The notes under the pieces: generated by a model
The model's database searches: none
The model's input: the letters and a program-made list of their open reading frames with translations, nothing else
Told to the model about the DNA's origin: nothing
Made by a program: the position numbers and the translations under genes
Assembly: GCA_026196495.1 (NCBI GenBank)
Contig: JAPHSY010000021.1
Coordinates: 1 to 64,000, forward strand
From: Magnetovibrio sp.
GTDB taxonomy: Bacteria > Pseudomonadota > Alphaproteobacteria > Rhodospirillales > Magnetovibrionaceae
DNA: 64,000 nucleotides
Direction of reading: 5' to 3'
Shown here: positions 34,659-54,531 of the stretch, piece after piece
Layout of the letters: each line of letters begins with the position of its first letter
Numbering within the stretch: the first letter of the stretch is position 1

Positions 34659-35201
34659 ATGACAGCGCCAATTGAAGAACAAGATTCAGCCGCTCTTTAC
34701 AGTGAGCTTCAAGGCTTACTGCACTACATCAACCGTGTACGTGAAGAAATCGCCAGTATTTCACGCCCCGCAGATGACGACCATGAATTTTCCACCATGT
34801 CTGATCAATTGGATGCGGTGATTCAAGCTACGGATGAAGCTTCCAATACGATCATGGCCTGCGCCGAAAGCAACGAAGATGCTGTTCAAAAGCTACGCGG
34901 ACTCATTAAAGACCCTGAGCAAGTGAAATTGTTGGACGTCATTGCCAATAACGACATGAACACCATTCAAGCATGTAGCTTCCAAGACATCACTGGCCAA
35001 CGCGTAACAAAAGTTGCCCGGTCATTGACCTATGTTGAAGATCGTGTTGCCGCCCTGACAGAACTCTGGGGCCGTGCTGAGATTGAAAAAGTCGAAGTCA
35101 AAGGCAACGAAAAGACTGCCGATGAGGAATTGCTCAACGGCCCGGCGCTTGACCCAACACGTTCCATCAGCCAGGACGAAATCGACGCACTTTTCGATTA
35201 A
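34659..35201 (+). CDS. CheZ-like chemotaxis phosphatase
   Basis: A 180-residue helical protein with a CheZ-like core. The segment LLDVIANNDMNTIQACSFQDITGQRVTKVARSLTYVEDRVAAL matches the long-helix active region of CheZ, with the FQDITGQ pattern that carries the catalytic Gln and acidic residue. The C-terminus ISQDEIDALFD is like the CheY-P-binding tail peptide seen in FliM (SQxEIDALL), consistent with docking to a CheY. No other che genes are in the window. A terminator follows. Confidence 0.75.
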   Translation: MTAPIEEQDSAALYSELQGLLHYINRVREEIASISRPADDDHEFSTMSDQLDAVIQATDEASNTIMACAESNEDAVQKLRGLIKDPEQVKLLDVIANNDMNTIQACSFQDITGQRVTKVARSLTYVEDRVAALTELWGRAEIEKVEVKGNEKTADEELLNGPALDPTRSISQDEIDALFD

Positions 35202-35226
35202 TCCAGATATTTTCCTAAAATTGATG

Positions 35227-35255
35227 CCCTGCCCTACGGCGGGGTTTTGGTTTTG
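35227..35255 (+). terminator. Terminator of the CheZ-like gene
   Basis: Stem CCCTGCC/GGCGGGG (one G-T pair) with loop CTAC, followed by TTTTGGTTTTG, 26 bp past the stop. Confidence 0.75.
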
Positions 35256-35310
35256 TGCACTCCGTGCTAATTTCCCTGCTCGTTTTTCTTTTCACATCTT
35301 GAGGAACACT

Positions 35311-35859
35311 ATGAAACGTTTTTTCCTCGCGTTTGCTGCACTATTCACCGGAGTTTTAATCATGTCTGAAGAGGCCCTGGCCCTGGATCTTGAAAACACA
35401 TTGTACATGGACCTCAAAGACGGCCGTGTTGTCATCGAAATGCGTGATGACTTGGCGCCTAAGCACGTTAAGCGTATCAAGCAATTGACCCGCGAAGGTT
35501 TTTACGATGGCTTAAAGTTCCACCGTGTCATCGAAGGCTTCATGGCCCAAGGTGGTGACCCAGATGGTAACGGTATGGGCGGTTCTGGCGTGAATATCCC
35601 TGCTGAATTTACCCGCACACCATTTGAACGCGGTACCGTCGGCATGGCACGCAACGGACATGACATCAACAGCGGCGACAGCCAGTTCTACATCATGTTT
35701 GATCGCGCTCCTTACCTAGACAACCAATACACAGTCTGGGGCCAAGTGGTAAAGGGCATGGAATTCATCGACAACATCAAACGTGGCGACGGTCCCAACG
35801 GTGCTGTTGAAGACCCCGACGTCATCGTCAAAATGCAAGTTGCTGCTGACGCACAATAA
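35311..35859 (+). CDS. Exported cyclophilin-type peptidyl-prolyl isomerase, copy 1
   Basis: A 182-residue PpiA/PpiB-like isomerase that helps proteins fold in the periplasm. A Sec signal peptide (MKRFFLAFAALFTGVLIMSEEALA, then LDLEN) precedes the cyclophilin domain: FYDGLKFHRVIEGFMAQGGDP, GTVGMARNGHDINSGDSQFYIMF and YTVWGQVVKGMEFID. The catalytic Arg (FHRV) and Phe/Gln positions are present. The track merges it with an upstream frame; ATG 35311 with GAGGA upstream is the true start. The second copy follows after 11 bp. Confidence 0.92.
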   Translation: MKRFFLAFAALFTGVLIMSEEALALDLENTLYMDLKDGRVVIEMRDDLAPKHVKRIKQLTREGFYDGLKFHRVIEGFMAQGGDPDGNGMGGSGVNIPAEFTRTPFERGTVGMARNGHDINSGDSQFYIMFDRAPYLDNQYTVWGQVVKGMEFIDNIKRGDGPNGAVEDPDVIVKMQVAADAQ

Positions 35860-35870
35860 GGCGCAACACA

Positions 35871-36488
35871 ATGCGCCTCGTTGTACTTGCATTGATTGTC
35901 ATAGCCATCGCCACGGGTGTTTGGTTTTTAACGTCTCAAGGTGCCGTCCAATCGGACGGCGCCATGAGCCTTTACCAAGGCACCGGTGAGACCAACTTAA
36001 ACCTTAACAGTGATGACAATATTTTGCTGTTGGAGATTCCTGCAGGTACAGTGGTCATCACGATGCGCCCCGATCTTGCGCCCATTCATGTCCAACGGAT
36101 CAAAGAATTGGTGCGCAAAGGGTTTTACGATGGACTGAAATTCCACCGTGTTATCGAAGGTTTTATGGCTCAAGGTGGTGACCCGGATGGTACCGGACGT
36201 GGCGGCAGTGGTTTCAACCTTCCTGCTGAGTTTTCTCAAGAAAAATTTGAGCGTGGTGTTTTGGGCATGGCCCGCGCGCGCTCCATCAACAGCGCCGATT
36301 CACAGTTTTTCATCATGCTGGGCGATGCCCCACACTTGAGCGGTCAATACACCATTTGGGGGCAAGTTACCAAAGGCATGGAATTTGTAGACGCTTTGAA
36401 AAAGGGCAACAAGAACGCCAACGGCCAGATTTCTGGCAAGCCTGACCGTATCAAACGCATGCGAATCAAATCAGACACACTGAACTGA
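35871..36488 (+). CDS. Membrane-anchored cyclophilin-type isomerase, copy 2
   Basis: A 205-residue tandem paralogue of the preceding gene, with near-identical blocks (GFYDGLKFHRVIEGFMAQGGDPDG, GGSGFNLPAEF, MEFVDALKKGN). The N-terminus MRLVVLALIVIAIATGVWFLTSQ is a hydrophobic anchor or uncleaved signal followed by an acidic linker, so the domain should sit in the periplasm attached to the inner membrane. Co-transcribed with copy 1. Confidence 0.92.
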   Translation: MRLVVLALIVIAIATGVWFLTSQGAVQSDGAMSLYQGTGETNLNLNSDDNILLLEIPAGTVVITMRPDLAPIHVQRIKELVRKGFYDGLKFHRVIEGFMAQGGDPDGTGRGGSGFNLPAEFSQEKFERGVLGMARARSINSADSQFFIMLGDAPHLSGQYTIWGQVTKGMEFVDALKKGNKNANGQISGKPDRIKRMRIKSDTLN

Positions 36489-41968: not shown

Positions 41969-43048
41969 TTATTCCTCAGCATCATCGGCGGGATCGCTAT
42001 CAGGACCACCGACCAGCATTTCATCGGCAATCAAGCCTGCATTGGCGCGGATTTGGCGTTCCAACTCTTCGGCCATTTCTGGATTTTCACGCAGGTAGTT
42101 TTTGGCATTCTCACGGCCTTGACCGATACGCACCGAGTTACACGAGAACCAGGAACCGGATTTCTCCACCAATTCGGCTTTTAAGCCCAAATCGAGCAAT
42201 TCACCCATTTTGGAGACGCCTTCGCCATACATGATGTCGAATTCGACCATTTTGAATGGCGGGGCCATTTTGTTTTTGACCACTTTGACCCGGGTTTGGT
42301 TGCCGACCACTTCATCACGATCTTTGATCGCACCGATGCGACGGATTTCCATGCGAACCGAGCTGTAGAACTTCAATGCGTTACCGCCCGTGGTGGTTTC
42401 GGGGTTGCCGAACATCACACCAATTTTCATGCGGATTTGGTTGATGAAGATCACCAGCGTGCCCGAGCGCGCCACAGATGCCGTCAATTTACGCAATGCT
42501 TGGCTCATCAGGCGGGCTTGCAGACCAACGTGGTGGTCACCCATTTCGCCCTCCAACTCAGCACGTGGCACCAAGGCAGCAACCGAGTCCACCACCAACA
42601 CATCCACAGCGCCGGAACGTACCAAAGTGTCGGTGATTTCCAATGCTTGCTCACCGCCATCGGGCTGCGAGATTAGCAATTCGTCAATGTTAACGCCCAG
42701 TTTCCTGGCATAAATCGGGTCAAGTGCGTGTTCGGCATCAACAAAGGCACAGGTGCCACCGGTTTTTTGTGCCTCGGCTACAACATGCAGTGCCAAGGTG
42801 GTTTTACCGGAGCTTTCAGGCCCATAAACCTCAACAATGCGGCCCTTAGGCAGGCCACCGATACCCAAACCGATATCCAGACCAATCGAACCCGTAGAGA
42901 TGGCTTCATGTTCCACGGTTTCGCGTTGGCCCAGTTTCATCACCGAGCCCTTGCCAAAAGCGCGCTCAATTTGTGAGACGGCGGCTTCCAGCGCTTTGTT
43001 TTTATCCACGGAGTTTTTCTCCACTAAGCGTAAAGCTGATTGCGACAT
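41969..43048 (-). CDS. recA: Recombinase A
   Basis: A 359-residue RecA that drives homologous recombination and activates the SOS response. Walker [37 protein letters not shown] (Walker B and loop 1), [28 protein letters not shown] (loop 2) and an acidic C-terminus. Full length. A GTTC-N7-GTTC box lies 124 bp upstream. Confidence 0.98.
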
Positions 43049-43100
43049 GATCCCCTAGCTCCAATCTTTCATAACGTTTCCAGATGTTCAATGAAGCCAG

Positions 43101-43128
43101 GATGTACCTATTTTGTTCTTGTTGTCAA
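43101..43128 (-). promoter_or_regulatory. Candidate recA promoter
   Basis: On the minus strand TTGACA (-35) and TACATC (-10, three of six matches to TATAAT) are 16 bp apart, giving a leader of about 45 bases. The -35 is strong and the -10 is weak. Confidence 0.4.
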
Positions 43129-43171
43129 AACTTTTTTTAATATATTGATATAAAACAATAAAATAACATAT

Positions 43172-43186
43172 GTTCCTTATGTGTTC
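43172..43186. promoter_or_regulatory. LexA (SOS) box upstream of recA
   Basis: GTTCCTTATGTGTTC is an exact GTTC-N7-GTTC direct repeat, the established LexA operator of alphaproteobacteria. It lies 124 bp before recA. On the minus strand TTGTGA and TGTTAT flank it as a weak -35/-10 pair with 16-bp spacing, which would put the box within a promoter. Confidence 0.75.
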
Positions 43187-43432
43187 ACAAAAAATTGAGT
43201 AAAGTTGGAACATTCAGCCCCACTGGTTAGTGCGCCATTTGGATCAAGAATCGCACCATAATCGATAATTTTGGGTCTACGCATTTTTTCACACCATAGC
43301 TTCAATCCTATCAATGACGTTCTAAAATATTTGTGTATGATGATAACACGACCATTACGGGCACAAGACCATATGGAAACCAGATAAAGCTTTTTGCTCA
43401 ATCTATTGACATGGCGTTTACTTCTACAACCT
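43187..43432. other. Intergenic region between the SOS box and the binding-protein gene
   Basis: This AT-rich stretch belongs to the 391-bp gap between recA and the binding protein. A 96-residue minus-strand ORF crosses it but has no family resemblance and no ribosome binding site. No RNA gene or terminator was seen. Confidence 0.4.
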
Positions 43433-43440
43433 GGGGGGGG
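43433..43440 (+). repeat. G8 homopolymer at the start of the binding-protein gene
   Basis: Eight G in a row end at the G of the GTG start codon at 43440. Slippage here would change ribosome binding spacing or, if translation begins upstream, the frame. Confidence 0.85.
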
Positions 43441-44288
43441 TGAGATTGGCGGACCACATACAAGCATTTCGTTTATATCAAGTGGTGCAAAGCGCCATGA
43501 CGGTTTGCACGGAACACGCCCAGAAATGGGGAAAAAGCATCGGAATCATTTGTATTGGCGTGCTCTGCTCCAATCAGGACGTATCCGCGCAAGAGCCACA
43601 AACCCGCACCATTGCCGCCGCCAATTCGACCTGCACAACCATCAAAAAAGCCGCAGAAATATTTGCCCAGCGCCACGGCATTTCCTTTTCCTATATCTGT
43701 AAATCCTCAGGACGTCTGGCCAAAGGCATCAAGGGCGGCATGATCACCCCCGACTATTTTATTTCAGCCAATGAAATGTGGATGAAAGAGCTCACAAAAA
43801 ACGGGCACATAAAGGCTGAGGTCGTTAAAGAACTCTGGGGTAATGAGCTGGTACTTGCCCACCCCCGAAATCATCCTCTCAACATAACCACCTGGGAAGA
43901 TATCGCCACGGACAAAATCGCCCAACTTTTGATTGGTGACCCAGGCACTGCACCGTTTGGACGTTATTCGAAACAGGCTCTTCAGTCCGTTGGTTTATGG
44001 AACAAAGTCAAATCGAAGATCAGTACTCGTAAACACATCACGCTGTTGTCCAACGACCTTGCCAACGCAGGGGCCGCAACTGCAGGAATGTTGTTTTCCA
44101 CCAACCTAACTGAAGATCTACAAACCGTTTTGCATGTGCCGTCTGTATGGCATGACCCAATCCGCTACTACGGCGCCCCCACCGCAGACAATGGCCATGA
44201 CAAAGTGATGACCTCTTTCGTTTCATATCTCAAAAGTCCAGAAGCTCAAGATGTTTTCAGTAAAGCAGGCTTCAAAATATTGCCTTAG
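43440..44288 (+). CDS. Periplasmic substrate-binding protein (ModA/type 2 PBP-like)
   Basis: A 282-residue secreted binding protein. The N-terminus carries a long signal-like region (IGIICIGVLCSNQDVSAQEP), and the mature part follows a ModA-type fold: TIAAANSTCTTIKKAAEIFAQRHGISFSYICKSSGRLAKGI, then GNELVLAHPRNHPLNITTWEDIATDKIAQLLIGDPGTAPFGRYSKQALQSVGLW. The ligand (molybdate or another anion) is not certain. The start is either GTG 43440, after the G8 run, or ATG 43497 (MTVCTEHAQKWGKS), which gives a more normal signal peptide. No ABC permease is adjacent; a histidine kinase starts 59 bp downstream. Confidence 0.75.
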   Translation: MRLADHIQAFRLYQVVQSAMTVCTEHAQKWGKSIGIICIGVLCSNQDVSAQEPQTRTIAAANSTCTTIKKAAEIFAQRHGISFSYICKSSGRLAKGIKGGMITPDYFISANEMWMKELTKNGHIKAEVVKELWGNELVLAHPRNHPLNITTWEDIATDKIAQLLIGDPGTAPFGRYSKQALQSVGLWNKVKSKISTRKHITLLSNDLANAGAATAGMLFSTNLTEDLQTVLHVPSVWHDPIRYYGAPTADNGHDKVMTSFVSYLKSPEAQDVFSKAGFKILP

Positions 44289-44347
44289 TCGCAACATGAA
44301 CCAACAAGGCTAAGTGAACTAAAGTTAATAAGTAGAGTGAAGAAACC

Positions 44348-45943
44348 ATGACTTACCATGACCGACCACTCCTATGGCAAATGTTGCTTCCGCTGTTGTT
44401 TGTCGGTTTTTTATGGGTGGGTGCAACGGCATTTACCGTTTCAAGTTTGAACGAGTCTCAATCACTCACACGCCAACTCCATGCTGGCCATGTAACTTTG
44501 GTGCTCAGACTCGAAAGCCTTAAAAACAGTTTCTCCACACTCAATCAAAATCTCTTGGAAATTTTGGCATCGGAAGAAGCTGCTCGAATAAAAGCTCTCG
44601 ACGAAAGCATACGCAAACGCCAGTCAAGATTACATGAAGAAATGCTTCAATTGGCAGATGCCCTGGAAAAAGAACATCCCGATGAAATTCCTCTGTTTAA
44701 CACCCTTCACAACCACTTCGACCAATATACAGCTTCCGTTAAGCACGTAACCTACCTGATCAAAGATTTTGAAAAAGAAGCCGCTTTTAACGAATACCAA
44801 AAAACAGCCAGTAAGCTACATGTCAAAATTGATAAGGCACTCCAGAATATGACCCGCATTGAGGTCGCAAGCATGAATGTTGCGTTTGATGAATCTGGAA
44901 AACGGGAAGCTGGAAATACCTATCTCGCTTTACTGTTCAGCATGATCTCTGGGGTTCTATCACTGTTGATTTTGGGGTGGACTGCACGACGCACCGTCAA
45001 ACGGCTGAATGCTGTGGGCAAGTACGCATCGGCTTTAGAAAAGGGTAATTTATCGGTCCCCAGCCCCAAAGCAGCAAAAGACGAGATCGGGCAACTCAGC
45101 AGCAACCTGCAGCATATGGCACAACATCTCGAAAGCTCCATGAAAGAACTGGACACCTACCACCGCCATCTTGAAGAGCTGGTCGATGATCGGACCAATG
45201 AACTGACCGCTGCAAAAAATAATGCGGAAGTGGCGAACCGTACCAAATCGGAATTTTTAGCCAATATGAGCCACGAACTTCGAACCCCGCTGAACGCTGT
45301 CATTGGTTTTTCCAGTGCAATACAATCTGAAATTTTTGGCAGCCTGGGGGATGAAAGATACGCAGAATACATCAACAACATTCACGAATCAGGTTCTCAC
45401 CTGCTTGAACTGATCAATGATATTTTGGACCTGTCACGCATCGAAGCCGGTGCCTTTACACTCGACGAAGACACCATCGATTTGCCAGAACTTTGCCAAC
45501 AAATCACAACGTTGGCGCAACCCCGTGCAGAAAGCGGGCAGATAAAACTTGAAAACCACGTGGATTGGAACACGCCGTTGTTGTTTGGTGATAAGCGCCG
45601 TATCAAACAAATCCTGTTCAATCTCTTGACCAATGCAACCAAATTCACTGAACCCGGTGGAACGGTCACATTAAAAGCAGACATGAACGGCAATGAATCC
45701 TTGTCTGTCACCGTTACGGATACTGGGCTTGGCATGACGGAGGAAGAAATTGAACTTGCTCGGTCTCGTTTTGGTCAGGTTGATGGGTCCTTGTCCAGAA
45801 CACACGAAGGCACAGGCCTCGGTTTGCCTTTGACTGAAGCCCTCATACAGCTGCATGGCGGGGAAATGAAAATACTCAGTAAAAAAGGGCAAGGCACCGC
45901 TGTTTGCGTTTCCTTCCCACCGGAACGCATCATTACCACGTAG
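44348..45943 (+). CDS. Membrane sensor histidine kinase
   Basis: A 531-residue kinase. TM1 ([20 protein letters not shown]) and TM2 ([19 protein letters not shown]) bracket about 160 helical periplasmic residues; HAMP and coiled coil follow ([53 protein letters not shown]); then HisKA ([15 protein letters not shown]) and HATPase_c ([32 protein letters not shown]). There is no receiver domain. It probably forms a binding-protein/kinase pair with the preceding gene, like TorT-TorS. No response regulator is adjacent. Confidence 0.9.
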
Positions 45944-46031
45944 ACACATGGCACTATGTTTTTCAAAATATACCCAACAAAACAAAAAAAACGCTCCCAA
46001 TACCAATTCTCCGTTCTCATTTATTGCCTTT

Positions 46032-46050
46032 TATCTCAAGTCATGAGATA
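46032..46050. promoter_or_regulatory. Perfect 7-5-7 inverted repeat upstream of the helicase gene
   Basis: TATCTCA-N5-TGAGATA is centred 71 bp before the helicase start. It overlaps a possible -10 (TAGAAT at 46049), so it has the position of a repressor operator. Confidence 0.5.
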
Positions 46051-46111
46051 GAATAGCCGTTTGCGCCTCCCCTGCTATCGCCCAATAGCTATTCTAACGA
46101 ACTGGTCCCTT

Positions 46112-47938
46112 ATGCAGCTTAGAAACTGGCAACAAGAAATCATCGATCAATTTCCGATGATTTTGAAACAATATAAGAAATTTATCCTCAAGGCCCCCAC
46201 GGGCGCAGGTAAAACCGTGCTCGCCAGCGAAATTGTTGAGCGTTTCTACCCGGACCAAAAAATCATCGTGCTGTGCCACCGTCTGGTGCTGTTGGAGCAA
46301 CTCCAACGCGCACTGAGTAAAAAGCATTCTGTGCACAAACTGAAAGCATCTGACACGGGCGATGCTTTTGACGGTTACGACATTTTGCTGTCCACCAACA
46401 TGCGTGCCAAGGAAATGTTGGATGATGCCATCTCCAAAGCCGACCTGATCATCGTCGACGAAGCCCACCGGGTTTCTCCCAATGGCGTAGCGTACAAGCG
46501 CATCATCGACCGCTTTCACGAAGCCGGAAAACCCGAAGCTCACTTCGTCGGCCTCACCGCATCACCAGAACGCAGCACCAACGACCAACGTGATCAGCTC
46601 AACCTCGCCTTTGATGCGATCATTGATTGCGCCAACATCAACGACCTGATCAACGAAGGCGTGTTGGTTCAGCCGATCTATCGCCCCCACTTCGTCCATG
46701 ATCTGGAAATCAACGACATTGATGTCAGCTCTGGCGATTTCCCGGTGGCAAAGCTATCGCCCGCGATCATCAAATCCTCAATGATCGACTACGCCATGTG
46801 GAGCTACAAGGAAGAGCGCGAAAAAGTCGACCAGCCGATCTCTGCCTGGTTTTGTTCCGACATCAGCGTCGCCGAAGCGACACTTGAAACCATTGAGCTC
46901 AATGGTATCAAGGGTGCGATCATCACCGCGGGAACGCCGCTGAAAGAGCGCATGGAACTTTTGGCCCAGCACGAAAATGGTGAGATCGAAGCCATGGTCT
47001 CCGTCGGTGTATTGGCCGAAGGCTGGGACAATCCGCTGTGTAACATCATCGTTCATTTGCGCCCGACCCTGTCCAAAGTGCTCTGGGGGCAAACCGTGGG
47101 GCGTGGTTTGCGCTCCGCCCCCGGCAAAGACAAATGCATCGTTATTGACGTGAGTTCCAACTGGAGCACCTTCGGCCCCGTTGAGCATTTGGAATGGAGC
47201 CTGTGGAGCAACCGCCGATCCCACCAACAATTCATGAACCGTTTCAACTGGATCGGACAACAGCACGACTCTGAGGACAGCGAAACCTATCTGCTGTGCA
47301 AAAGCGAGCTCGCCAACAAAACCCGATGTTCGCACATCTATAAAAAGGGTGAGCACAAAGACGACACCTGCCCCATCTGCGGCACCTATGCTGCGACCGA
47401 CATTTACCGCGAACAAAAACTCGACAGTTCCTTGAACGAAAGCGGTTTGCATCACTTGTTCTTTGATCGTGTTCCGCGTGTGTTTGAAGAGATGAACATG
47501 TCGGTGTGGGAAAGCCTGGGCGGCACGGCATGGAAAACCGCATCTGAAGATGAAAAAGTCTTCCTCAGCTTCTGCATGGCGTTTGCTGCTGTGTCCGGTG
47601 ACGAAACCCATTCCGAAACCGATTACTGGGATGCAGCCTTGGCGGCCGAAGCCTCAATTCGCGGTTACTTGGTGGAAAACCAGTTTGCTATGAAAAAGCA
47701 AGAAGACTTCGAATTGTCCCTGATCGCCGACGGCATGCTGGCGGGCAAGAAAATCCGAACCTTGCAAGCACACTATGGCATTTCGGTCTGCGGCACCGCA
47801 TTCCAATCGTGCGACCCATCCGAGAACGAGCGCAAATATCAAAAGGCGATCAAGGTCGCCGAACGCCTCGCCATACTCGGCTGTTCAGCCAAAGACAACC
47901 TGCCGTATTTCAATGCAGAAGAGTATATGGCCGGGTAA
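46112..47938 (+). CDS. RadD-like superfamily 2 helicase
   Basis: A 608-residue SF2 helicase: Walker A KAPTGAGKTVLASEI, DEAH box IIVDEAHRV, motif III GLTASPE, and motif VI QTVGRGLRSAPGKDKCIVIDV, with VGVLAEGWDNPLCNIIVHLRPT before it. A zinc-finger segment (CKSELANKTRCSHIYKKGEHKDDTCPICG) follows the helicase core. The architecture (SF2 core, zinc finger, C-terminal helical domain) is that of RadD/YejH, which acts in crosslink and replication-fork repair in E. coli. Start ATG 46112 (MQLRNWQQEII) replaces the track start at 46061. The last 171 bp are repeated at 48842. Confidence 0.82.
   Translation: MQLRNWQQEIIDQFPMILKQYKKFILKAPTGAGKTVLASEIVERFYPDQKIIVLCHRLVLLEQLQRALSKKHSVHKLKASDTGDAFDGYDILLSTNMRAKEMLDDAISKADLIIVDEAHRVSPNGVAYKRIIDRFHEAGKPEAHFVGLTASPERSTNDQRDQLNLAFDAIIDCANINDLINEGVLVQPIYRPHFVHDLEINDIDVSSGDFPVAKLSPAIIKSSMIDYAMWSYKEEREKVDQPISAWFCSDISVAEATLETIELNGIKGAIITAGTPLKERMELLAQHENGEIEAMVSVGVLAEGWDNPLCNIIVHLRPTLSKVLWGQTVGRGLRSAPGKDKCIVIDVSSNWSTFGPVEHLEWSLWSNRRSHQQFMNRFNWIGQQHDSEDSETYLLCKSELANKTRCSHIYKKGEHKDDTCPICGTYAATDIYREQKLDSSLNESGLHHLFFDRVPRVFEEMNMSVWESLGGTAWKTASEDEKVFLSFCMAFAAVSGDETHSETDYWDAALAAEASIRGYLVENQFAMKKQEDFELSLIADGMLAGKKIRTLQAHYGISVCGTAFQSCDPSENERKYQKAIKVAERLAILGCSAKDNLPYFNAEEYMAG
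47768..47938 (+). repeat. Direct repeat copy 1: intact 3' end of the helicase gene
   Basis: The final 171 bp of the helicase gene, from GCACACTATGGC to the TAA, recur at 48842-49012 with 11 differences (about 94 percent identity by hand alignment). This copy forms the functional gene end. Confidence 0.9.
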
Positions 47939-48059
47939 ATTCTGAGATCGCACTTTGGAAGTGTTTAGTTTTTTTATTTTGGACAGGGTTGAGCTAAAGC
48001 CTTGTAATAAAACAGAGACGGCCAATATAGAAATCATAAATAACTATTGGTCATTACCA

Positions 48060-48809
48060 ATGTTCAAATTTCTAACAACATGGGTGTTTTGTCTTTTCTT
48101 GAGCATTCCCGTTGCTTGGTCTGCACAAGAAGTACCGTTTCTTACCTATCACAATGCCCCACCATTTATTGTAGATGCCGATAAACAAGAAGGGCTGACA
48201 TATGATTTGGCACGCCTACTATCTGATCGCTCAAATGGAAAATACCAATTTGTTGTTTCATTGCTTCCCCGCAAACGCCTCAACATATTTATAGAGAAAT
48301 TAAATACCTGTGTCGTTCCATGGGTAAACCCCGCCTGGTTTCAGGATAAAAAAATGAACAAGTATTCATGGACCGACGGGTTCATGAAAGACAGCAACTC
48401 TGTCATTTCCCATGCCGCAAAGCCAGTTGAGTACAGCGATCCAGAATCGTTAGTGGGAATGAATGTGATTGGACTACAAGGCGGGCAGCTCGTTAATTTA
48501 ACCGAACTCATCAAAACCAAAAAAATCAAAAAGGTCGAAGTGAGAAGCTACTTTCAAGCCTTAAAGATGATTGCTGCCAAACGGGGCGACGCTGCGATCA
48601 TTCCAACCAGTGCAGCAAAACATCTTATTTTTCAGCATCGCATGAAGAATACATTTCATTTTTCTTCAACACGCCACACGCAATATGAGCGCCGCTTCCT
48701 CGTTCGGGGCGACCCAGGCATTTTAATATTTTTGCAAAAACAAATTTCATTTTTGAAAACATCACCCGCTTGGCAAGCCAAATTTGCAAAATATGGATTG
48801 ATCCAATAG
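48060..48809 (+). CDS. Periplasmic substrate-binding protein (PBP2/SBP_bac_3-like)
   Basis: A 249-residue exported protein. Signal peptide MFKFLTTWVFCLFLSIPVAWSAQE; mature part FLTYHNAPPFIVDADKQEGLTYDLARLLSDRSNGKYQF is the opening of an amino-acid-type binding protein, followed by LVGMNVIGLQGGQLVNLTEL and the end FLKTSPAWQAKFAKYGLIQ. Ligand unknown. It is more AT-rich than the helicase gene and lies wholly between the two copies of the helicase 3' end. The start ATG 48060 (MFKFL) replaces the track start. No transporter genes are nearby. Confidence 0.78.
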   Translation: MFKFLTTWVFCLFLSIPVAWSAQEVPFLTYHNAPPFIVDADKQEGLTYDLARLLSDRSNGKYQFVVSLLPRKRLNIFIEKLNTCVVPWVNPAWFQDKKMNKYSWTDGFMKDSNSVISHAAKPVEYSDPESLVGMNVIGLQGGQLVNLTELIKTKKIKKVEVRSYFQALKMIAAKRGDAAIIPTSAAKHLIFQHRMKNTFHFSSTRHTQYERRFLVRGDPGILIFLQKQISFLKTSPAWQAKFAKYGLIQ

Positions 48810-48841
48810 TTCAAAATATCATCGTTTGTCAAAGGCGTGTT

Positions 48842-49012
48842 GCACACTACGGCATTTCGGTCTGCGGCACCGCATTCCAATCGTGCGATCCGTCCGAGAA
48901 CGAGCGCAAATATCAAAAGGCTATCAAGGTTGCCGAACGCCTCGCCATACTCGGCTGTTCATCCAAAGACAATCTACCGTATTTCAATGCAGAAGAGTAT
49001 ATAGCGGGGTGA
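48842..49012 (+). pseudogene. Direct repeat copy 2: orphan 3' end of a helicase gene
   Basis: This copy encodes AHYGISVCGTAFQSCDPSEN onward in frame with the helicase end and stops at TGA. Only Ala to Ser and Met to Ile change the protein; eight further differences are silent and one swaps TAA for TGA. No helicase core lies upstream; the preceding frame is chance reading of the binding-protein gene end. It is a gene remnant that diverged under coding selection. Confidence 0.88.
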
Positions 49013-49131
49013 GGGCCAGGATGGTTTTAGTCAATTCAGCCATAACCATGAGCTGTATTTACATTGACAAACACACCTATTTAGCATCATCATCTACTCT
49101 CTGCCAGATATAATTTAAGGTGGGGGAGTAT

Positions 49132-50334
49132 ATGAATACCCACAATGATAAAGGTAGGTATACACCACATTCTCAGTTAGAACGTTGGAAACGCTTCCAA
49201 GAAGCAGCCCACGGTGAAAAGTCGTGGATAAATGATCGCATGAGCTGGATGCTCGTGGCTCAGGGGTTTCTGTTTGCCGCACTTGCATGGATTATGAATC
49301 CACAAAAAGGAAGTGATCCCGATCAACTCAAAAATATTGCTGCCATAATATCTATGTTAGGTGCAAGCATCGCATTAATTGGTTTCGGCGGAGCTCTAGC
49401 TGCAGGAAGAATGCATTACCTATGGACGACTAAGCTCAACAAAATAGCAATTGCCCTTCCAAATGAAGTCACATTCGGACTGAAGCCACACTGGCCTGCA
49501 AGAACGACATCCGTTTTACCTGCTGTAGCCGCACTTGCATTTTTTTTCACGTGGGTAGGAGTAGTCTGTGTAATCCCCGATATAAACAAACAGATGTTTT
49601 GGGGTGTTATTGTCGCTTCCACTTTTATAGTCGTCATATTTATCTCGTGGATTACTTCTCGTAGCAATGCCCGCCCGCCCAAAATCAAAGCCGTTTTTTT
49701 TGATGTAGATGGAGTATTACTCAACTCCTTACCTGAGCACATCAAAGCATGTGAGCAGCTTAACGCAGAATACACGCTAGATCTCTCCATCCCAAATGCA
49801 AAAGAATTCAAAAATAAAATCGTCCGAGCCGGTATACAAGTTGCGCCTATGCGGCGTTTTTTTGAAGCCGTCAAGTTCCCTGAAAATCACCTTGATGATG
49901 CCGTTACGTGGTATGATGAATATTTTTCAGAAAAATATTCATCACCTTATTTCGAAGGTGTTGAATGCATGATCACGGAATTACATGGTGAGTACATGCT
50001 TGGCATCGTGACATCGAACGTTCAAAAAAATATAGAGAATTCTCTGGCTCACATTTATGAAATGTTCGAACAAAAATGCATCTTCACTGAAGATGTGGGA
50101 CTAAGCAAATCTGAGGCCATTAAACTTGGAGCTTCACGTTTGGGGATTTCAACAAATGAAGTTCTATTTATTGGGGACCAAGAGCGAGATCGCGAAGCAG
50201 CAGAAACTGCAGCTGCTAACTTTCTTGGCGTTGCCTACGGTTGGCAATTTAGTAGAAATGACCAATTGGACTTCACACTCGTCAACACACCCAATCAAAT
50301 CGTTGCACACATACGCAAAATCAATTGTTTATAA
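49132..50334 (+). CDS. Four-TM membrane domain fused to a HAD phosphatase
   Basis: A 400-residue fusion. Residues 1-185 hold four hydrophobic helices (SWMLVAQGFLFAALAWIM, AAIISMLGASIALIGFGGALAAG, SVLPAVAALAFFFTWVGVVCVI, GVIVASTFIVVIFISWI) after a Trp/Arg-rich start (LERWKRFQEAAHGEKSWINDRMSW). Residues 190-400 are a HAD hydrolase: AVFFDVDGVLLNSLPEHI, IVTSN, LSKSEAIKLGASRLGI and VLFIGDQERDREAAETAAANFLGVAYGW. All four HAD motifs are intact. ATG 49132 with GGGGAG upstream replaces the track start. I do not know a characterised protein with this layout. Confidence 0.72.
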   Translation: MNTHNDKGRYTPHSQLERWKRFQEAAHGEKSWINDRMSWMLVAQGFLFAALAWIMNPQKGSDPDQLKNIAAIISMLGASIALIGFGGALAAGRMHYLWTTKLNKIAIALPNEVTFGLKPHWPARTTSVLPAVAALAFFFTWVGVVCVIPDINKQMFWGVIVASTFIVVIFISWITSRSNARPPKIKAVFFDVDGVLLNSLPEHIKACEQLNAEYTLDLSIPNAKEFKNKIVRAGIQVAPMRRFFEAVKFPENHLDDAVTWYDEYFSEKYSSPYFEGVECMITELHGEYMLGIVTSNVQKNIENSLAHIYEMFEQKCIFTEDVGLSKSEAIKLGASRLGISTNEVLFIGDQERDREAAETAAANFLGVAYGWQFSRNDQLDFTLVNTPNQIVAHIRKINCL

Positions 50335-50403
50335 AACCATTTCCTCAAACACACTGCATTAAAGACAAAGAAAACGTGTAACTCACTTTCAATCATACTT
50401 TGG

Positions 50404-50412
50404 CCCCATATA
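50404..50412 (+). repeat. CCCCATATA, left flank of the transposase gene
   Basis: The same nine bases recur at 51201-51209, on the other side of the transposase gene. They may mark element borders or be chance. Confidence 0.25.
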
Positions 50413-50461
50413 CGACTTAATAATCCAGGATCATAGGGCAGTTGAGATCAAATCATGCCAA

Positions 50462-51124
50462 TCACTTCTTCTTCGGCTTACGCCCACGCTTTTGCGGACG
50501 CAGAACGCGACCCAACTGATCTTCGAGTTTGTCCAAGAACCGTTTGTTGCCTAGCGGGCGTCCGGTGCTGGAATGGGCTTGGAGTTTCTTGACCATATCC
50601 GGGTCATCTTTGCCCTTAATCAGGTCGGCCCAATCGTCGCACTTCTTCAACAATGGTTTGACCTTCACCAGTTGATCATCTTCACCTTTCAAATGAGCCT
50701 TGGCGCTGCTCCATTTGTATTGGCGGGCAGAGCGGGCAAGGCCTGCGCCCACCGGGGTGCGTTCGACATAGGCCGCAGCGGGCAGCACATGGGCATTGTC
50801 CATGGGAAATGAGGCAAAGCGGCCTTGCCATAAATACCCCGACCACCCTTCACGATCATTGATATAGCGGGTATAGCGTCGATGGGCTTCACCCACCGCG
50901 CGGGCCAAGCCATCATCCGTTTTCGGCACCAAAATCATCTGCACATGGTCAGGCATCAAGCAATAGGCCAAGACCTGCACCTTGCACTTGGCGCACCACT
51001 CGCTCATCAAATCAATATAGGTTTGATAGTCTTCATCGCAGAAGAACGTTTCTTGATTGCGATTGCCCCGCTGCACCAAGTGATGCGGTGTACCGGGGAC
51101 GACAACACGAGCCAAACGCGCCAT
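50462..51124 (-). CDS. RAYT/IS200-like Y1 transposase, degenerate
   Basis: A 220-residue REP-associated tyrosine transposase-type protein: MARLARVVVPGTPHHLVQRGNRNQETFF, YCLMPDHVQMILVPKTDDGLARAVGEAHRRYTRYIN, GYLWQGRFASFPMD, AAAYVERTPVGAGLARSARQYKWSSAKAHL. The HUH signature that is normally MPNHVHL reads MPDHVQM, so the second His is Gln, and ELNPVRA reads ERTPVGA. The presumed catalytic Tyr (RRYTRYIN) remains. Activity is doubtful. A hairpin covers the ribosome binding site. Confidence 0.82.
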   Translation of the reverse strand: MARLARVVVPGTPHHLVQRGNRNQETFFCDEDYQTYIDLMSEWCAKCKVQVLAYCLMPDHVQMILVPKTDDGLARAVGEAHRRYTRYINDREGWSGYLWQGRFASFPMDNAHVLPAAAYVERTPVGAGLARSARQYKWSSAKAHLKGEDDQLVKVKPLLKKCDDWADLIKGKDDPDMVKKLQAHSSTGRPLGNKRFLDKLEDQLGRVLRPQKRGRKPKKK

Positions 51125-51133
51125 AGGGAAGTC

Positions 51134-51158
51134 CTTTCGTCTCTAATCCAGACGAAAG
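51134..51158 (-). promoter_or_regulatory. Hairpin over the transposase ribosome binding site
   Basis: CTTTCGTCT and AGACGAAAG form a perfect 9-bp stem with a 7-base loop. On the minus strand it ends nine bases before the start codon and includes part of GAAAGGA, the likely ribosome binding site. Confidence 0.5.
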
Positions 51159-51200
51159 CATAGCGACAACGACATGAAACGGCAATATTGGATACTATGT

Positions 51201-51209
51201 CCCCATATA
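51201..51209 (+). repeat. CCCCATATA, right flank of the transposase gene
   Basis: Second copy of the nine-base repeat at 50404-50412; the two are 797 bp apart with the transposase gene between. Confidence 0.25.
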
Positions 51210-51269
51210 GCGCTGGAATTATTCGCAACACTTGTGCACGATGGTGTTATTGCAAGGGAGTTCATCTAA

Positions 51270-51698
51270 ATGCGTTATGTATTATCCGTTTGTGCCATTT
51301 TAAGCCTATCCACAACAGCTATGGCCGAAGATGTTCAAAGTGATTACACCGAAAACACGGTCACACCTTTGTTGTCTTCACCTAAATCCGTAATTGGCGA
51401 AACCATCACATATCCCGGTGGCACCAAAGCGAATATCGTTTCTGCCATTGTCACCATAGCACCCGGCAAAGAAACAGGATGGCACAAACACGGTGTGCCG
51501 CTTTATGCCTATATGATTTCCGGTGAGTTGACCGTGGATTACGGCGACAAAGGCGTCAAAACCTACACCCCAGGCATGGCATTTATGGAAGCCATGGACA
51601 AAATGCACAATGGCATGAACAAAACGGATAAGCCCGCCAGCGTCCTAGCTGTTTATATGGGGGCAGAAGGTTTTGATAACGTCATTCGGCCGAAATAA
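51270..51698 (+). CDS. Exported cupin-domain protein
   Basis: A 142-residue periplasmic cupin. Signal peptide MRYVLSVCAILSLSTTAMAED; cupin motif 1 IAPGKETGWHKHGVPLYAYMISGELTVDY with two His and motif 2 YTPGMAFMEAMDKMHNGMN with one His, so a metal site is likely. The function is unknown. It converges on cckA with a 4-bp gap. Confidence 0.8.
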   Translation: MRYVLSVCAILSLSTTAMAEDVQSDYTENTVTPLLSSPKSVIGETITYPGGTKANIVSAIVTIAPGKETGWHKHGVPLYAYMISGELTVDYGDKGVKTYTPGMAFMEAMDKMHNGMNKTDKPASVLAVYMGAEGFDNVIRPK

Positions 51699-51702
51699 GT
51701 GA

Positions 51703-54531
51703 TTATTCTGCAAGAACCGATTTGACCTTGGCCGCCAAATCTTTCAGCGAAAACGGCTTGGGCAAGAAATTAAAACCGGCATTTTCATCAATACCGCCGG
51801 GGATCACATTTTCCGCAAAACCGGAAATCAAAATCACTTTCATATCCGGGATTTCTTGGCGCACGAACTGTACCAAGGTGTGCCCGTCCATGCCCGGCAT
51901 CACCACATCGGTGACGATCAGATCAATGGGTTTTTCGGTGGCGTTGATAACTTCCAAGGCTTCTTCGCCGTTGGCGGCTTCCAGTACGGTGTAGCCTTTG
52001 TTGCGCAGGGCGCGTGATCCGAACATACGCACGGCATCTTCATCTTCCACCAACAAAATGGTGCCGACACCCGTTAAGTCCGTGTCATCGGAACCATCGC
52101 GTTCGGCTTTCAGTTCCGGTTGCGGTGTCAGTACGGGTTCAGAGGTTGCACCTTCTACTTTAGGGCCATCAAGCGCCGGTTTGGTGTTTGCCTGCACCTG
52201 TTGAACGGTGGGCGTGCCAGCGCTTTCATCAAAGCGCGGTAAACACACGGTGAACGCCGCACCTTCACCCGGTGCGCTGTCGACAAATATATAGCCGCCA
52301 GTTTGGTGAACGATACCGTAGACTGTGGACAAGCCCAGCCCCGTCCCCTCACCCACTTCTTTGGTTGAAAAGAACGGCTCAAAAATACGGCTAAGGTCTT
52401 CTTTGCGGATGCCTTCCCCCGTATCGATCACATCAATGGTGACGTAATCACCAGCGGGAACCAACTCCATGCCTTTTTGTGACGGCTCATCCAAGCTCAT
52501 ATTCGATGTGCGAATGGTCAACGTGCCACCGCCGGGCATGGCGTCACGCGCGTTCACCGCCAAGTTCAAAATCACTTGGTCAAACTGGGTCGGATCGACA
52601 CGGATGGGACCAAGATCACGGGAATGTTCAATGTTCAATTCGATGGTCGGGCCGATCAGGCGGCCCATCACTTCAGACAAATCAGACAGCTTTTCCTTGG
52701 CATCGATGACTTGCGGTTCCAGCGTTTGTTTGCGCGAAAACGCCAAAAGCTGTCGCACCAATGACGTTGCCCGCACCGCATTTTGGCGAATTTGGTTGAT
52801 GTCGTTAAAGGACGGGTCCTGCGGCCCATGACGGGTCAACAACAGATCGGAGAAGCCAATCATAGCTGTCAACAAGTTGTTGAAATCGTGCGCAATTCCA
52901 CCAGCCAACTGACCAATGGATTGCATCTTTTGCGATTGCGCGAACTGCACTTCCAAATGTTTTTGTTCAGTCGTGTCGATGAAGTGCAAGATCAACCCCG
53001 TCACTTCACCAAAGGCATCTTCCATGCGCGAGGCATAAAGTGACGCCGTTACATCGTGACCGCTGCGCGCGGGCATGCGCACTTCAATATGGGCGGCGCG
53101 CATGATGCCCATGACCACTTTCGACAACTGGCCACCCACTTCACCTTGATCCTCGCGGGCCAACCGCTCGGTAAAGGGCTGGTTGATGACATCGTCTTTA
53201 TGCAAGCCCAGCATTTTCAAGAACGCACCATTACAATCGGTGATGTTGGCCTTCATGTCCAACATGGCGATGGAAACCGGGGCTTCGTCAAACAGCCAAT
53301 ACAAACGCCGCGCGATATCGGAGATGTTTTCATCATTTCCTGAATGCACAACCACGGCCGTTTCCGGTGGCGGTTGTTTGCGCACCAAATCACGCACAAC
53401 GATGGAGCGGGTATAAAGCAATTCACCCTCATCACTGATGCGTCCTGATTGCAGCAAAAAGGCCTTAAACACTTCCCCGGCGCGTGATTGCAACGTCACT
53501 TGGCCATTGTCACCATCATTCTCATCGCCTTCGGATGGGGCCAGCTCAGTAACAAATTCAGCAAAGCCCAAGTTACCATCACGAATTTCGCCAAGTGTCA
53601 CACCCAGCCACTGGCAAAGAACATCATTGACATAGACCATACGCCCAGTGCCATCGACAGAGAAAAAGCCCACTGGCAAATTATCTAACAAATCCGCCAG
53701 CAAAGCTTCTTCAGCACTGCGGACTTCATCTAGCTCACGTTGTGCCGTAATATCGCGCGCGGCCCATCCGACAAGGCCACTTCCCGGCTTGCCTGCAGGG
53801 CGCGCTTTGAACTTCCACAACGTTTGATGCCCACCCGCAAAGGTAATGGGGACCTCGGTCCAATCCTTGGCTCCACTCGCAGCCGCACTCAGCATGCGCC
53901 GCAAAGACATAGGCGATTGGCTATCTTGTTCAGAGACCCTCACCGCATTGGGAATTTCCGCCACCGCATTGTGATGGAACAATGCCCGCATGGATTCATT
54001 GGCATATAAAATATGCCCCGCGGCATCCGAAAGCATCAACGGCTCACCCGTTTCGCCTGCAGCCATGTAAACTAACAAGGCTTCTTCATCTACGCGTGCG
54101 CGGCGACCAAGGCTCCACGCAAATGCAAAGGCCAAGGCACCGCTCGCGGTCAACAAACCCGTGGAAATTAAGTCTGGAGCAATTGGCAAACTTGGCAGCG
54201 ATACAAGACCTGTCTGCAAGACCGCATAAACACCACCCAATGCCAATCCCAAAATCCCAAATAAAGCAGGATTGGGACCTCGTGGCGGGCGGAAAGGTTT
54301 ATGTGAAACTTCGAGCTGTTGAGAACCTTTATTTGCTTTTGCCGATGCCTGATCAGATGCCGCATGATCATCAGGCGTCAATGGACCAGCGCGCAGCAAT
54401 TCCGGCGCTGGATGCAGCTTATGTTGATCCTCATCGGCATCCTCAACTGACGTATCCAGGGGATTACTCGCCACCAGATCTTCAAGGCCCGGCAAGTCAG
54501 GTTCATCTGTTGATGGTTTGTCCACCGCCAC
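51703..54531 (-). CDS. cckA: Hybrid histidine kinase CckA
   Basis: A 942-residue hybrid kinase with a long Pro/Asp-rich N-terminus, two TM helices (about 89-145), three PAS domains (about 150-270, 285-400, 415-530), HisKA (GGIAHDFNNLLTAMIGFSDLLLTRHGP), HATPase_c and a C-terminal receiver (DLIVTDVVMPGMDGHTL). The HisKA block and VRQLLAFSRKQTLEPQVID are close to CckA, the start of the CckA-ChpT-CtrA relay that controls cell cycle and motility in alphaproteobacteria. It is longer than Caulobacter CckA (about 690). The start overlaps flhB by 29 bp (GTG 54531, or GTG 54525 with AAGG upstream). Confidence 0.88.
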   Translation of the reverse strand: MAVDKPSTDEPDLPGLEDLVASNPLDTSVEDADEDQHKLHPAPELLRAGPLTPDDHAASDQASAKANKGSQQLEVSHKPFRPPRGPNPALFGILGLALGGVYAVLQTGLVSLPSLPIAPDLISTGLLTASGALAFAFAWSLGRRARVDEEALLVYMAAGETGEPLMLSDAAGHILYANESMRALFHHNAVAEIPNAVRVSEQDSQSPMSLRRMLSAAASGAKDWTEVPITFAGGHQTLWKFKARPAGKPGSGLVGWAARDITAQRELDEVRSAEEALLADLLDNLPVGFFSVDGTGRMVYVNDVLCQWLGVTLGEIRDGNLGFAEFVTELAPSEGDENDGDNGQVTLQSRAGEVFKAFLLQSGRISDEGELLYTRSIVVRDLVRKQPPPETAVVVHSGNDENISDIARRLYWLFDEAPVSIAMLDMKANITDCNGAFLKMLGLHKDDVINQPFTERLAREDQGEVGGQLSKVVMGIMRAAHIEVRMPARSGHDVTASLYASRMEDAFGEVTGLILHFIDTTEQKHLEVQFAQSQKMQSIGQLAGGIAHDFNNLLTAMIGFSDLLLTRHGPQDPSFNDINQIRQNAVRATSLVRQLLAFSRKQTLEPQVIDAKEKLSDLSEVMGRLIGPTIELNIEHSRDLGPIRVDPTQFDQVILNLAVNARDAMPGGGTLTIRTSNMSLDEPSQKGMELVPAGDYVTIDVIDTGEGIRKEDLSRIFEPFFSTKEVGEGTGLGLSTVYGIVHQTGGYIFVDSAPGEGAAFTVCLPRFDESAGTPTVQQVQANTKPALDGPKVEGATSEPVLTPQPELKAERDGSDDTDLTGVGTILLVEDEDAVRMFGSRALRNKGYTVLEAANGEEALEVINATEKPIDLIVTDVVMPGMDGHTLVQFVRQEIPDMKVILISGFAENVIPGGIDENAGFNFLPKPFSLKDLAAKVKSVLAE

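Follow-up and report, generated by a model that had tools for sequence, protein, structure and literature searches.

A second, orphan helicase 3' end beyond a one-gene insert in the recA-cckA interval of a Magnetovibrio genome: a candidate recombination scar

In the window analysed here (the whole 64-kb stretch of Magnetovibrio DNA), the last 171 bp of an intact RadD-like helicase gene occur a second time, on the far side of a 903-bp insert that holds a single complete gene, as an orphan 3' end without a helicase body. The most plausible reading is a recombination scar of a known type, of which this would be a new example. With slightly better than even confidence, we propose that a related strain supplied DNA that recombined at the helicase gene, that its far junction was illegitimate or arose through a truncated circle, and that the old 3' end was thereby left behind. 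In the following, the 3' end of the functional helicase is called END1 and the orphan copy END2; the features of the locus are listed in Table 1.

Table 1. Position and character of the features in and around the duplicated helicase end (window coordinates).
Feature	Position	Strand	Remarks
recA	41969-43048		
Variable recA-cckA interval	43049-51702		8.66 kb; encloses the whole feature
RadD-like superfamily 2 helicase gene	46112-47938	+	Intact; 608 aa from ATG 46112; Pfam ResIII/DEAD/Helicase_C
END1	47768-47938	+	Last 57 codons of the functional helicase gene; stop TAA
Insert between the helicase ends	47939-48841		903 bp, AT-rich
Passenger gene	48060-48809	+	249 aa; only complete ORF of the insert; signal-peptide-like start
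END2	48842-49012	+	Orphan second helicase 3' end without body; stop TGA
HAD gene	49120-50334	+	AT-rich accessory gene downstream of END2; N-terminal membrane region and HAD hydrolase
Y1_Tnp transposase gene	50462-51124		RAYT-type, IS200-like; 1.45 kb past END2
cckA	51703-54531		Large hybrid histidine kinase; named by size and place

END1 and END2 form a gapless direct repeat with a start-to-start spacing of 1074 bp and 160 of 171 positions identical, which confirms to the base the recurrence claimed in the original prediction. A recount likewise returned the predicted 11 mismatches (at offsets 8, 47, 50, 80, 89, 120, 131, 134, 161, 164, and 169), comprising eight silent differences, two residue changes (A to S and M to I), and the exchange of TAA for TGA. 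With an E value of 4e-34 for the match of END2 to the helicase tail, the resemblance cannot be due to chance. The right border of the repeat is the stop codon, i.e., the gene end, after which the 3' flanks of the two copies show no detectable similarity, while the 5' border is an arbitrary point within the helicase gene, with only 20% identity between the 60 bp to the left of either copy. An inverted repeat marking the start of the repeat was not found, neither a premature stop nor an indel was seen in END2, the window contains no tRNA, and the locus itself has no Rfam RNA. END1 and END2 are the only two copies of the helicase tail in the genome, and theirs is one of two direct-repeat families of at least 45 bp in the window. 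The other is a tandem pair of genes for cyclophilin-type peptidyl-prolyl isomerases (35074-36488), which are 71% identical over 225 bp.

The helicase itself has the RadD structure 6jde as its nearest neighbour among solved structures (E 1e-19), but matches the NCBIfam RadD profile over residues 1-349 only and with 115.3 bits against a cut-off of 720. Judged by these matches, it is a relative of RadD (YejH) with a similar helicase core and not RadD proper, as the equivalog cut-off is missed and the profile covers the N-terminal 349 residues only. The nearest helicase among the relatives examined is about 84% identical in protein. In relatives, the gene is patchy and non-syntenic, with unrelated neighbourhoods in different family members. 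In one relative (G016, L036:7901-10444 on G016:C81), the helicase is split into two frames with ambiguous bases and lies, as judged by eye, between infC-like and rpmI-rplT-pheS-like genes, surroundings that are unusual for an accessory gene.

The insert has a GC content of 41.9% as compared to 52.7% for the helicase gene, and it contains the complete, AT-richer binding-protein gene that had been predicted for it. When searched alone, the passenger protein fell below the cut-off for Pfam SBP_bac_3 (E 0.036), while a profile of its family (five homologues) retrieved amino-acid-binding proteins from the PDB (best E 9e-5). Judging from these matches, the passenger probably is a secreted protein that binds solutes, of the amino-acid-binding type SBP_bac_3. 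It was probably carried along as an ordinary sensor or uptake protein of the periplasm. Its homologues occur in genomes of the genus and the order. The closest of them (37%), in a genome of the same genus (G001:C323, L195:2401-4750), lies directly upstream of a histidine kinase gene whose product is 49% identical over 295 aa to the kinase encoded at 44348-45943 of the window. Given this neighbourhood, the passenger may belong with the window kinase, the helicase gene now standing between them.

The divergence of the two ends bears on how END2 arose. Nei-Gojobori counting gave a dS of 0.25 and a dN of 0.016, with eight of the ten sense differences silent. If a single copy had decayed, 35-42% silent differences would be expected (transition bias 1 to 4), and eight or more of ten have a probability of only P = 0.005-0.016; the silent bias is thus improbable under decay in place and points to two alleles that diverged under constraint. 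A model in which both copies were constrained predicts about 83-86% silent differences, which the observed proportion fits, although this fit is not independent since the omega of 0.06 was derived from the END1/END2 pair itself. All of these statistics are based on ten substitutions. With modest statistical support, it holds that most of the divergence accrued while both copies were working gene ends, whether these belonged to different strains or to two full genes. The claim that the silent-biased pattern argues against a tandem duplication decaying in place is therefore borne out by the codon-substitution analysis. As the 131 non-synonymous sites show only two amino-acid changes, the orphaning of END2 is dated late, to about the final eighth of the period since the two alleles diverged (0.0155 vs 0.126 per lineage). 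Which lineage acquired which difference cannot be polarised, because over the helicase tail even the closest relatives reach only 70-75% identity and third positions look saturated.

The arrangement did not recur in relatives. No true second helicase tail was present in any other genome among 318 genomes of the order, 40 of which contain the tail, nor was one found in the helicase loci of about 50 relatives, where the 41 named loci (Rhodospirillales/Thalassospiraceae metagenome bins) reach up to 8 kb downstream. This downstream reach was at least 1.1 kb in 45 of 52 sequences and at least 3 kb in 35 of 52, the window itself being among these sequences and some genomes being present twice. Strains with other passenger genes between the same ends, which the original prediction had suggested looking for, were not encountered among the relatives examined, and these included neither the ancestral arrangement, in which the HAD gene would follow immediately on a helicase end, nor the donor arrangement. 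Two candidates were rejected: an apparent second tail at a contig start in G011 belongs to a contig that shares a 364-bp overlap (98.9%) with the helicase contig, and a helicase pair in SAT1367 lies on contigs that are 99.5% identical over 8.4 kb, indicating a redundant assembly or strain copies. In G080, a decayed orphan helicase tail (L196:2561-2683, G080:C48:14560-14682) is present with no other tail match in the genome, and accordingly helicase tails can survive as relics. This decayed tail adjoins a probable rsmJ-like methyltransferase gene.

The whole feature lies between recA and cckA, an interval that is a hotspot of gene content across the family, with differing genes and lengths from about 0.24 to 8.66 kb. 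Computed from coordinates, the lengths in relatives are 236 bp (G006), about 250 bp (G015), 1.4 kb (G001, G011, and G013), 2.6 kb (G003), 3.2 kb (G005), 4.0 kb (G016), 4.7 kb (G010 and G012), and 7.8 kb (G002), while recA and cckA are on separate contigs in G004, G007, and G008. The intervening genes differ between most genomes and are common to close pairs such as G010/G012 and G011/G013; the G002 interval contains an IS-type transposase gene, as recognised by eye from the translation. In the window, the interval encodes two binding proteins, a histidine kinase, the helicase, the HAD protein, a Y1/RAYT-type transposase, and a cupin protein. The helicase, passenger, and HAD genes are absent from the intervals measured in relatives, and a full-length relative of the HAD gene was not found among the family members that were searched. 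Within bacterial species, conserved genes are commonly separated by short variable segments, which are mostly credited to illegitimate recombination (PMC2884548).

According to the proposed scenario, the ancestral recA-cckA interval would have carried one allele of the helicase (allele a) with today's downstream genes, such as the HAD gene, behind it, while the incoming DNA from a related strain would have carried another allele of the helicase end (allele b), followed by the binding-protein gene. On the entry side, ordinary RecA-type homologous recombination within the helicase gene would have sufficed. As the far side lacks shared sequence, the join there would have been illegitimate, by homology-facilitated illegitimate recombination (HFIR), or a circle containing no more than a truncated helicase end would have been joined in a single crossover. 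This would leave a complete helicase gene with END1 as its terminus, followed by the new gene and then by the displaced END2 of 171 bp on the old downstream DNA. The two ends and their divergence under constraint, the variability of the locus, and the lack of this arrangement in relatives are observations; the direction of the event (which end was resident), the donor, and the recombination route are inferred, none of the steps having been directly observed. Unrelated DNA after each stop codon is to be expected if two strains had different genes after the same helicase.

Several known systems resemble this scar. The one-sided homology characteristic of HFIR and of truncated-circle crossovers is found here, with 171 bp of homology and unrelated flanks beyond, and in those events, too, one side is homologous and the other is truncated or illegitimate, and foreign DNA is flanked by a partial gene duplication (PMC3240628). 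Where circles lacked a portion of the homology, single crossovers yielded partial lacZ duplications of 109-950 bp, and this was commoner than HFIR (PMC3240628). These events came from laboratory selections, whereas the present case is read from one natural locus. Orphan 3' ends are also left downstream when type VI secretion (T6SS) effectors (PMC5361080) or Rhs tips (PMC2935791) are displaced by recombination of incoming DNA at a shared upstream part. In those systems, however, tip sequences are different and arrays arise repeatedly, while the tails described here are alleles of one helicase and the event was seen once.

The closest rival would make END2 the remnant of a complete second helicase gene: two diverged alleles, stemming from transfer or an old duplication, would have flanked the binding-protein gene until a recent deletion left only the terminal 171 bp of the second. 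With both genes constrained, this explains the silent bias equally well, and bodiless tails such as that of G080 do occur. The original prediction had itself listed a recently deleted second helicase gene as a refutation; its inference of two constrained alleles holds under either explanation. Nonetheless, we consider this rival unlikely: it is the less economical account, in which two full genes must first be present and one must then be deleted, close helicases of the subfamily were in no case distinct loci in the genomes examined, and no other fragment of a second body is left in this genome. A tandem duplication of the tail and insert, decaying in place, would give identical geometry and is very unlikely in view of the silent bias (P as above) and of an END2 free of indels and premature stops. 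Still less credence is due to an assembly artefact, i.e., a chimera of strain variants: the genome is indeed a draft (3.1 Mb in 86 contigs), and the look-alike tail of G011 proved to be a contig overlap of variants, but here the feature lies inside a 71-kb contig, the longest exact word common to the copies is at most 38 bp, and the estimated contamination is 0.22%.

A site-specific integrative element (prophage, satellite, or island) could also have entered at the helicase 3' end, END1 then being the replacement and END2 the original, with the integrase and all but one gene lost since. The analogy drawn in the original prediction with integrative elements at other gene ends is a good one. In E. 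coli K-12, prophage e14 keeps icd whole through a replacement end and orphans the original on its far side as icdC; the duplicated 3' end there measures 165 bp with 12 differences, ten silent and two changing amino acids (PMC11148124, PMC4759930), as compared to 171 bp and 11 differences, including the stop swap, at the present locus. This nearly identical anatomy, an intact helicase with END1 and an orphan END2 beyond, keeps a stripped element among the rivals. We nevertheless regard it as rather improbable: e14 is a prophage with an integrase, while here 903 bp carry one gene and no integrase, the site does not recur in the 318 genomes or the 41 named loci, and the passenger has its homologues in genomes of the genus and order and no relatives in viral contigs or plasmids. 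The prediction that no recombinase is in sight applies to the insert, which encodes the binding protein only, and to tyrosine integrases, none of which is on the source contig (the PF00589 matches of the genome are all on others), but it overlooks the Y1_Tnp gene farther downstream. Neither the insert nor the helicase has close relatives in the phage, plasmid, or viral collections: searches of viral contigs with the helicase, the passenger, the HAD gene, and an exact 20-mer came up empty, plasmid searches did likewise, and helicase matches in phage records were distant (<30% identity among the matches listed). The integrase search of the relatives' flanks was weak, having as queries only the host's own integrases and Xer-like proteins. 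It appears extremely doubtful that the helicase 3' end serves generally as a docking site for small cassettes without a recombinase, which would bring replacement ends of their own and so let single passenger genes spread between strains. Such a cassette, as first proposed, found no support in second tails or integrases; it is not singled out by the silent bias, which also fits a deleted second helicase, and general recombination at the recA-cckA hotspot can explain the scar. There is no sign of a new mobile element at the locus.

Read as a recombination scar, the locus would be a small fossil of gene gain, of fairly recent date, with the resident and incoming alleles both still legible. It would illustrate how an accessory gene may be added beside an intact gene with no dedicated recombinase, a principle that is already established.
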